A DNA stretch of 64,000 nt. Source: Bolinopsis microptera (taxonomy: Eukaryota > Ctenophora > Tentaculata > Lobata > Bolinopsidae). Under the pieces are notes generated by a model. That model searched no databases. It saw nothing but the letters and a program-made list of their open reading frames with translations, and was not told the DNA's origin. Positions 17,651 to 20,600 of the stretch are shown piece by piece. The DNA lies in contig NC_087072.1 of the NCBI RefSeq assembly GCF_026151205.1, forward strand, positions 16,693,669 to 16,757,668, written 5' to 3'. Within the stretch, counting starts at the first letter, position 1; the number at the start of each line of letters is the position of its first letter. The position numbers and the translations under genes were made by a program.

Positions 17651-20600
17651 CGGTGATGTGTAGATAATTAGACCGCAGAATGCTATCACGAGCAAGACTA
17701 AAAATGCTGCGATAATGTACCACTTGTACTTGTCCCAGACAAGAATTTTGAAAATTATGAGCGGCATTAGGAACCAGTTGAACGATGTACTCGGTCGGCT
17801 GAAATTGTTGATGTGATAAAAAAAGATGAACGAATCATAACATATCTCACTCTTTTTGATCCTTTTCTATTAATGACAAACAATTATTAATTTCCAGTAG
17901 TATTTTAGTGAAATGTTGCATAATCATTAATTCCACTGATTGATATATCAGCCTTACTCTGGCGCTTCAAGGACCGGATGCTCGTTGGGTTCGGATCGTC
18001 CTTGTCCGGCTGGCTTTTCAAGAGCCTCCTCTTCAGTCATGATTTCTATCTCCAACTCTACTTTTCCCTTAAAATTATGTTTTTCAAAACCTATTACCAC
18101 AGTTTAATAGTTAATACGATAATAATTATATTATACGCTCGGAGTGATAGCTTTAAGCCTTATTTTATGTTACTTTAATAATAATAGGAGATGTTTATAT
18201 TAATGATTAAGTATTATAGAGGCATGAGCATTACAAATGTATGATTATACCGTTAATTCTTTTTCGCCCGTCAAGGTGTCGTCATACACAGGCCAGAAAC
18301 CTCTGATCTTCTTCTTGTCGATAATAGAAATTTTTTCTGAATCCGGTACCAGGTATTGTTTTAAACTGCATTCTTTGGCACTTTTAGTGGGGGGAGGCAT
18401 TGCAACAAAACTAAATTCCGTCCAACCTGTTTAAATTGAAATCTTTAAAATGTTATAATTTTTAACAAGGGGTCTTCAACGAGTTGACAAACGACCGTTT
18501 CATGCCTTCTGAGAATTCCGAAAGGTGTGAGCCCTATCATTTTACAGCAATAATAAATAAATCTGCTACAGAAGTTTTGAAGTTGATGAGTCTCAATCCC
18601 ATCCAAAATCCATAGATTAGGTCAAAATTATTACATTGGAAATGTATGCAGAGTAAAAGGTAATGAATGCAGAGTAAAAGGTAATGAATGCAGAGTAAAA
18701 GGTAATGAATGCTTGGATGGATGATTTCCAATATTTCTCTATTAAATGAATCAATGCCTTCACCCTCGCAGGGCATGCAATATATCTTCTCACCGATCAA
18801 ATCATTGTAACTAAGAATGTCATAATCGTAAACTTCAACATGCAGTATAGGAGGAAACTTTTTTCGACTAGCTTCGATTTCATAAAAGTGATCCTGATGG
18901 GAATTTATCAGCTGGTAGGCGCTAAGTACATGCAGCTTGTTTAAGAATTAATATTACAAGAGATAAGCTACTTGAATTATACCAGAAACATATTTGCATT
19001 ACAGTTGTATCAGTATCACTGCATTGCAGTAATTTGTATCAAAGAAAACGAATAGCAGCAAATGTAAAACACTCGGGCAAGACCTTATAACACCGGGATT
19101 ATATACAAATGGATAACGAGAGAGCAGAAATTCAGCTATTCAGTTTTTGAGAAATTGTCATCAAACTCGAAAATGTAAGACTGATTTCAATTGAGGGGAT
19201 TTCATTTCCACCCACTTTAATTAGAAGTCAGCCATAACCAGCACAGGGAGCATTTTACACTAACCCAACAAGTCATTGGAGGAAAATATATCATAATCGT
19301 AAACTTCTATGTGTAAGTTAGGGGGTTCTTTGATCATCTCCTTAGTCAGTTGAAACATGCTTTTCTGACGACAATAAGTTTGTTTGGTCAGTATTGTATT
19401 GGAGAATTTGGATACGTTTGGTAGGTTTAATTCACATGATTTATTGCACATGGTAGAGATTGAATGACTAAAATGCTGAACTTACCCTCTGATAGGTACA
19501 GAGCATCTGTTCAGCCAGGAGGTAGTCAAACTCATAGCACATCCTCCAGTTGAAGTTGCCTTCTCCAGTCAAGGACCGGAAATGAATGTCTGTTTCTTGT
19601 TGCTTGTTCTTCATCCCTTCCAAATGACTGAGGGTGATTTGCCGTGTAACGAAATTCAAATAAATAATTGAATTAAAATTCAATTACTGGGCCCTTAAAG
19701 TGGATATGCTTACTAAAATACTAACATCTTCAGGAATATGTCACTCATCCTTTCTCCCATGAAGTTCTCGTCAGACAAGATAACATCAATGGTGTTCCAT
19801 ACAATAACCCTGAAAAAATGATAAATAAATCACATAAAGTAGTTGCTAACATCAAGGAACCGAAAGAACAAAAGTAGTATAACTTTTAATCCGAAATAAA
19901 GATTCCAGAAGATTCCCTAATAATATCCACCTGAGAACCATCTTATCAGTAGCCCGAGGAACGATGTTGATGGGGGGAGGAGGGTTCCTGTCCCAGGGGA
20001 ATATGTCAACCCACAGATGTAGTTTACCCTGCGAAGTGTGGTTTAATAAAGTCATCCAATTTGATAGCAGTCTGTACATATATATAAATATCAAATTGGC
20101 AGTTCAATATACCACAAGTTCTATCTGCAGATATGCTCCAGTCATTAGACTATTAGATTACAAAACAAAACAATAACCTGGGGGATTCCCGGGCAGTCCT
20201 CATTGTAGAGAGTCCGTGTCTCGAAGTGTTCAGGAACCACTCCAAGCTCGTGCAGGACATACAGAGCCAGTCTGTGTTCGTCCGACCCAAGTTGCTTGTC
20301 ATCGGGAGTCTTCTTGGTCTTGGCTGACTCTGTTGGTGGTAATATAACTATATAAATCGATACTATTCATTATTAGTTCATTAGGGAGCTAATGAACCAT
20401 TATAACCCTCATTTAATAGTGATTAGCGGTATACTAATACAGTATTCCCCCTAATCTGCTGGGGTTATAAACGTTTAAAATGTTTGTAAAGACCCAATTG
20501 GCTATTCAGATTCTGAAGCAGAAATCTGGAACGTTTAACTTCACCTAACTACATTGTCGTAGTGCAACATAGCAGGCACCTTATCATTTCGATCCAGTAT

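Follow-up and report, generated by a model that had tools for sequence, protein, structure and literature searches.

The minus strand of the 64,000-nucleotide stretch of ctenophore DNA analyzed here (the window) carries a myoferlin/dysferlin-like ferlin gene in which two neighboring, homologous 100-nt exons, E1 and E2, quite probably form a mutually exclusive pair that arose by tandem exon duplication. We infer from their structure that both exons are used in RNA and that the use of one excludes the other. Because the two copies are interchangeable, the ferlin gene can probably encode a calcium-triggered membrane-fusion protein in two forms.

Structure of the exon pair and identity of the gene

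E1 (19265..19364) and E2 (18794..18893) are alternative exons on the minus strand, lying between two constitutive exons on the same strand. The upstream one, exon D (19486..19627), encodes HLEG..., ends in phase 0 at the donor GTAAGT, and has a last residue that aligns with myoferlin K1866, while the downstream one, exon F (18251..18426), finishes a split Gly codon and encodes WTEFSF...GEKELT. E1 has the acceptor ..GTCGTCAG and the donor GTTAGT, which it has in common with exon C of the same gene as modelled, and E2 has the acceptor ..CCCATCAG and the donor GTGAGA. As modelled, exons A (20329-20178), B (20028-19931), and C (19809-19726) cover the region before and in the last C2 domain, and exons G (18067-17958) and H (17798-17651) encode the Ferlin_C region and the transmembrane anchor, with the model running through H; all five are on the minus strand. 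The exon coordinates and all junctions given by an earlier sequence-only reading (19486, 19364, 19265, 18893, 18794, and 18426) were right on re-check. The E2-F intron also holds a 21-nt tandem repeat of 3.4 copies (18641..18712, minus strand) that is pyrimidine rich on the gene's strand.

E1 and E2 are both exactly 100 nt long, with an AG acceptor, a GT donor, phase 0 in, phase 1 out, and an open frame, and they are identical at 54 of 100 nt and 16 of 33 residues, which confirms that they are adjacent homologs. Their leading residues had been called entirely different; this was refuted by a gap-free alignment in which 3 of 16 are identical (hand count) and which places them in part of a known hairpin. 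In tblastn searches of E1 and E2 against each other, the pair was found with E values of 4e-9 (window alone) and 9e-9 (window plus seven loci), and an all-against-all comparison of minus-strand open reading frames of at least 22 amino acids gave 6e-9. Among the open reading frame matches listed, E1/E2 was the only pair with both members at 17 to 40 kb. E2 DNA had a single match, itself, in a search of the 264.65-Mb genome (264,652,675 bases in 232 contigs). Minus-strand open reading frame comparisons also showed a tandem repeat of about 177 bp at 8701-9962, and at the window edge, 60031-63897, there is a perfect or near-perfect direct repeat with a period of 947 bp and about four copies.

In silico splicing took in exons A to H. 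The forms with only E1 or only E2 kept an open frame through the transmembrane exon. The form with both exons met a stop within E2 after S-L-L, 372 nt before the last modelled junction, and the form with neither met a stop in exon F, 220 nt before that junction. The earlier argument that using both exons, or neither, breaks the frame and so forces a choice was thus borne out. Adjacency, equal length and phases, homology, and a frame that tolerates one copy only, the features that mark mutually exclusive exons, are all found in E1/E2. An Rfam scan of 17000-21000 returned no match at the gathering threshold.

Three frames of 17301-32000 compared with Protein Data Bank (PDB) chains at E values up to 0.01 matched only myoferlin, dysferlin, and otoferlin, with myoferlin first in each frame. 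For the piece from C2G to the anchor, dysferlin was the first match, over 286 amino acids with E values of 6e-76 for the E2 isoform and 3.2e-76 for the E1 isoform. Joined exon pieces matched the Pfam models FerB, C2, and the ferlin dsRBD-like domain, and the C-terminal piece matched Ferlin_C and C2, so that the C-terminal half of the protein has C2, FerB, dsRBD-like, and Ferlin_C domains above the Pfam cut-off together with a transmembrane anchor. The Pfam C2 score was 30.1 bits for the E1 isoform and 25.1 bits for the E2 isoform, both above the whole-protein cut-off of 22. Exons aligning to myoferlin 1007-1044 and 1097-1134 suggest a DysF region; the Pfam DysF model was not among the matches on these incomplete joined pieces. 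Judged by these similarities, the gene is a ferlin nearest to myoferlin and dysferlin, and its last C2 domain is therefore C2G in the seven-C2 naming. We read the label C2F, used before, as the last C2 domain in the six-C2 naming. On the strand of the gene, an open frame of 367 codons (24128-25231), S/P/D rich and then K/E rich, lies where myoferlin 1433-1553 would fall and is possibly a long lineage-specific insert.

The membrane-contact unit encoded by E1 and E2

The available sections of the myoferlin cryo-EM paper (PMC12264198) describe a C2G beta-hairpin, residues 1859-1879, with lipid contacts at K1866, H1868, F1869, W1870, and I1872, and further C2G lipid contacts in loops 1 and 3 at I1807, K1892, F1893, and L1895. 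According to the same sections, the acidic positions in loops L1 and L3 of C2G are conserved, and two calcium ions are likely bound there. The E2 form aligns without gaps to myoferlin chain residues E1918-G1951, and subtracting 51 from the chain number reproduces the letters of all nine lipid contacts named in those sections. The E exon therefore corresponds to myoferlin E1867 to about G1900, that is, to the tip and second strand of the beta-hairpin, the next strand, and calcium loop 3. Because it starts at E1867, strand 1 of the hairpin is encoded by exon D and the tip and strand 2 by E.

Of the nine C2G lipid contacts that the available text names, seven fall inside the E exon. At these positions E2 has H, F, Y, and I in the hairpin and I, L, and Y in loop 3, and E1 has S, M, F, and L in the hairpin and I, F, and S in loop 3. 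E1 and E2 thus differ at 6 of 7 contacts against 17 of 33 residues over the exon, a marginal enrichment (hypergeometric P = 0.051). The HMMER alignment of the E1 form with dysferlin shifts the hairpin tip by one residue, which makes the difference 5 of 7. The three loop-3 aspartates (1889, 1891, and 1897) are identical in E1 and E2; which acidic residues bind calcium is taken from the C2 consensus. Since the loop-3 aspartates are kept and the lipid-contact side chains are changed, the alignment to the solved myoferlin leads us to expect that the E1 and E2 isoforms should both sense calcium but grip membranes differently. The effect on the membrane-facing surface that had been suggested for the exon choice is, to this extent, supported residue by residue by the available parts of the myoferlin paper. 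If both exons are used, the pair would be a natural domain-engineering experiment in which the loop-3 calcium ligands and the anchor stay constant and the membrane-contact residues vary, and ferlin researchers could use the natural exchange of E1 and E2 to probe the roles of the C2G hairpin and loop 3.

History of the exons and possible control of the choice

The locus lies within a tandem ferlin cluster, and further ferlin exons are found in the genome on contigs C1 and C7. In the closest paralog, P2, whose C-terminal end is in locus L022, one E exon was found, exactly 100 nt long with the phases of E1 and E2, and it is identical to E2 at 16 of 34 residues and to E1 at 13 of 34. On the same strand, exons at window positions 1-2041 resemble those at 33.6-36.2 kb, which indicates that a second ferlin directly follows; on this resemblance P2 is probably an adjacent tandem copy. 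The E/F intron within the split Gly codon is common to this gene and a paralog at 21.03 Mb (L027), and the D/E intron, which this gene has in common with P2, is missing from L026 and L027. This distribution suggests that the 100-nt E exon probably already existed in the ancestor that this gene shares with P2. As to whether the E1/E2 doubling or the split from P2 came first, three topologies lie within 0.75 lnL. In a comparison meant to map the duplicated segment, the introns flanking E1 and E2 showed no homology beyond chance. Two further observations concern the neighborhood of these genes. The C-terminal exons of another, divergent ferlin lie on the same strand at 49870-51671, with similar copies at C1:16.60-16.62 Mb and C7:18.05 Mb. 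By eye, an antisense gene whose start resembles a signal peptide appears to be nested in the 2.3-kb intron before the E exon of P2 (L022 2158-4478), along with a repeated stretch; nested intronic genes have been reported for a ctenophore (available parts of PMC8527503).

One of the two exons, more likely E1, could be a relic of the duplication that is rarely or never spliced in, leaving E2 in effect constitutive. We regard this as unlikely, although it draws on several measurements. E1 is farther from the paralog than E2 is (13/34 versus 16/34), its branch is longer (0.75 versus 0.36), and the E1-E2 comparison by LWL85 gave a dN of 0.50 and a dS of 0.66, a ratio near 0.8, with the NG86 synonymous distance saturated. 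In a three-sequence codon model of E1, E2, and the paralog, neutrality was rejected for the set (2 delta lnL = 20.3 for one omega versus all neutral) and a single neutral branch was mildly rejected for E1 (2 delta lnL = 4.6) and for E2 (3.5), in a model that is weak: several branch lengths reached their bound, and the free-branch fit failed to converge, ending worse than the simpler model. The set of E1, E2, and the paralog thus appears to be under purifying selection, as far as these weak tests reach, and the mildness of the E1 result is compatible with a relic. E1 itself argues against decay: its frame is open, its length and phase are exact, its sites are AG and GT, the donor being one that modelled exon C of the gene also has, the loop-3 signature D-Y-D...N-D is kept, and its isoform has the higher Pfam C2 score (30.1 bits versus 25.1).

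On the reading that both copies are in use, a mechanism has to choose between them. The E1-E2 intron is 371 nt long, and all splice sites are by eye of the U2-type GT-AG class. The sequence-only reading had suggested a search for pairing elements in the intron. Docking/selector pairing in three intron pairs was matched or exceeded by 39, 134, and 110 of 200 shuffles, and the longest complementarity was 11 nt with G-U allowed, of which about one is expected by chance (hand calculation), with one stretch covering the E1 acceptor. Exclusion by a too-short intron, by mixed U2/U12 sites, or by RNA pairing is therefore unsupported, and what surrounds E2 instead is a set of UGCAUG (RBFOX-type) sites.

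All three sites are on the minus strand: one lies upstream of E2 with 35 nt between (18929..18934), one inside E2 in the codons L-H-V (18839..18844), and one in the following intron with 14 nt between (18774..18779). Together they span E2 in 161 nt, the only such triple among the 48 UGCAUG sites on both strands of the window and seven loci (128,504 bases), and UGCAUG is the only hexamer that occurs three times in this stretch. Among 1,000 shuffles of a 1,059-nt region, none had three UGCAUG within 170 nt and 11 had three anywhere, for a motif that was chosen after inspection by eye and whose exonic copy may reflect coding constraint on L-H-V. The window as a whole has 19 UGCAUG against 29.4 in shuffles, which makes the motif rarer than predicted. 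Outside the triple, the GCAUG core has one copy in E1 and another in the E2-F intron. Weighing against the cluster, the spaced triple had 402 matches in the whole genome (reversed control, 4,089), the 100 listed being mostly tandem arrays, and E2 has the sole non-tandem-looking one on C1 among the matches listed (n = 14; by eye, 80 letters). The E exon of P2 has no UGCAUG nearby on the coding strand.

The genome also encodes an RBFOX-type RNA recognition motif (RRM), read from one exon, whose six best PDB matches were RNA-binding protein 9, fox-1 homolog 1 (three matches), ataxin-2-binding protein 1, and ASD-1. The first of these we take to be RBFOX2 and the fifth, presumably, RBFOX1. With UGCAUG near the exon and an RBFOX-type RRM exon in the species, RBFOX-family control is the most likely basis of the E1/E2 choice, by analogy with known exon pairs.

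We therefore propose the following model. Tandem duplication of an exon in a myoferlin/dysferlin-like ferlin gene would have given E1 and E2, and each mRNA would take one of them, as the reading frames require of a full-length product. A tissue-specific RBFOX-family protein would act on the three UGCAUG sites in E2 and on either side of it, on the model of the exon pairs of egl-15, unc-32, and FGFR2. Messages with both exons or neither have an early stop with junctions still to come, and would either be degraded by nonsense-mediated decay or yield an anchorless protein. The E cassette is the C2G membrane-contact unit, and its swap would alter the lipid-contact side chains and leave the loop-3 aspartates in place. 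Taken as a whole, an RBFOX-controlled ctenophore ferlin switch that exchanges the bilayer face of the last C2 domain with its loop-3 calcium ligands fixed, and so yields two calcium sensors that are cell-type specific and differ in membrane grip, is a tentative idea that we hold with less than even confidence.

The double-in and double-out messages could also be made on purpose under a looser control, as an off switch through splicing-coupled decay or as a source of an anchorless form. An intron of 371 nt imposes no steric block, intron pairing is at shuffle level, and both products stop early, all of which would permit this. The skipped product, however, breaks the C2 fold at the hairpin, with PDB matches ending at 104-107 of 129 residues and the tail unmatched, and we think such deliberate use improbable, more so than a relic exon. 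That two alleles, or the exons of two genes, were set side by side in the assembly is conceivable in a tandem ferlin cluster and has no direct evidence in its favor, and we give it almost no weight, because E1 and E2 share just 54 of 100 bases, E2 DNA has a single genomic match, and flanking introns without detectable homology are not those of a haplotype or assembly duplicate.

Comparison with known alternative exons

Ctenophores are often placed as sister to all other animals, and the pair, if it works as proposed, would add a candidate RBFOX-type exon switch in a ctenophore. The sequence-only reading knew of no mutually exclusive C2 exons in ferlins, and within their limits our literature searches likewise found no report of any; a search on ferlins in early animals returned no mention of ferlins among the matches listed. 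A close parallel is otoferlin, in which exons 47 and 48 provide alternative C-terminal ends in brain and cochlea (available sections of PMC10394277). As with E1 and E2, a segment at the C-terminal end of a ferlin exists in two versions chosen by splicing. According to those sections, otoferlin exon 47 has its own stop, exon 48 is the alternative end, and the transmembrane segment is swapped, whereas E1 and E2 are internal 100-nt exons that exchange the face which the last C2 domain turns to the membrane and that share one anchor. Splicing also alters a C2 domain in dysferlin, where C2A has an alternative exon 1 (excerpts of PMC2923515) and where, by the title of a work cited in the available part of PMC7140416, the C2A versions are calcium dependent and calcium independent. 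The dysferlin variant is thus an alternative first exon in C2A, while E1/E2 is an internal duplicated pair in the last C2. In the portions of these sources available, neither otoferlin 47/48 nor the dysferlin first exon nor the misfire isoforms are described as an internal duplicated pair.

As a class, mutually exclusive exons are well known, and a ctenophore myosin already offers a predicted case: the muscle myosin Mhc2 of Mnemiopsis leidyi, with a cluster of them (available text of PMC3912159). Mhc2 and E1/E2 have in common that mutually exclusive exons are predicted in a ctenophore, and they differ in that the Mhc2 cluster concerns the motor domain of a myosin, a different protein family.

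For the proposed control, the parallels are egl-15 5A/5B and unc-32 7a/7b of Caenorhabditis elegans and FGFR2 8/9, which like E1/E2 are mutually exclusive exons with UGCAUG. In the available sections of PMC3585155 and PMC2880598, the UGCAUG of egl-15 precedes exon 5B, that of FGFR2 precedes exon 9, and that of unc-32 lies in intron 7b, with RBFOX-family proteins as the readers. Control in those three systems was shown by genetics and reporters, whereas for E2 the sites and a candidate RBFOX exon alone are known. E2 also departs from the arrangement described there for egl-15, unc-32, and FGFR2 in having UGCAUG on both sides of the exon and inside it.
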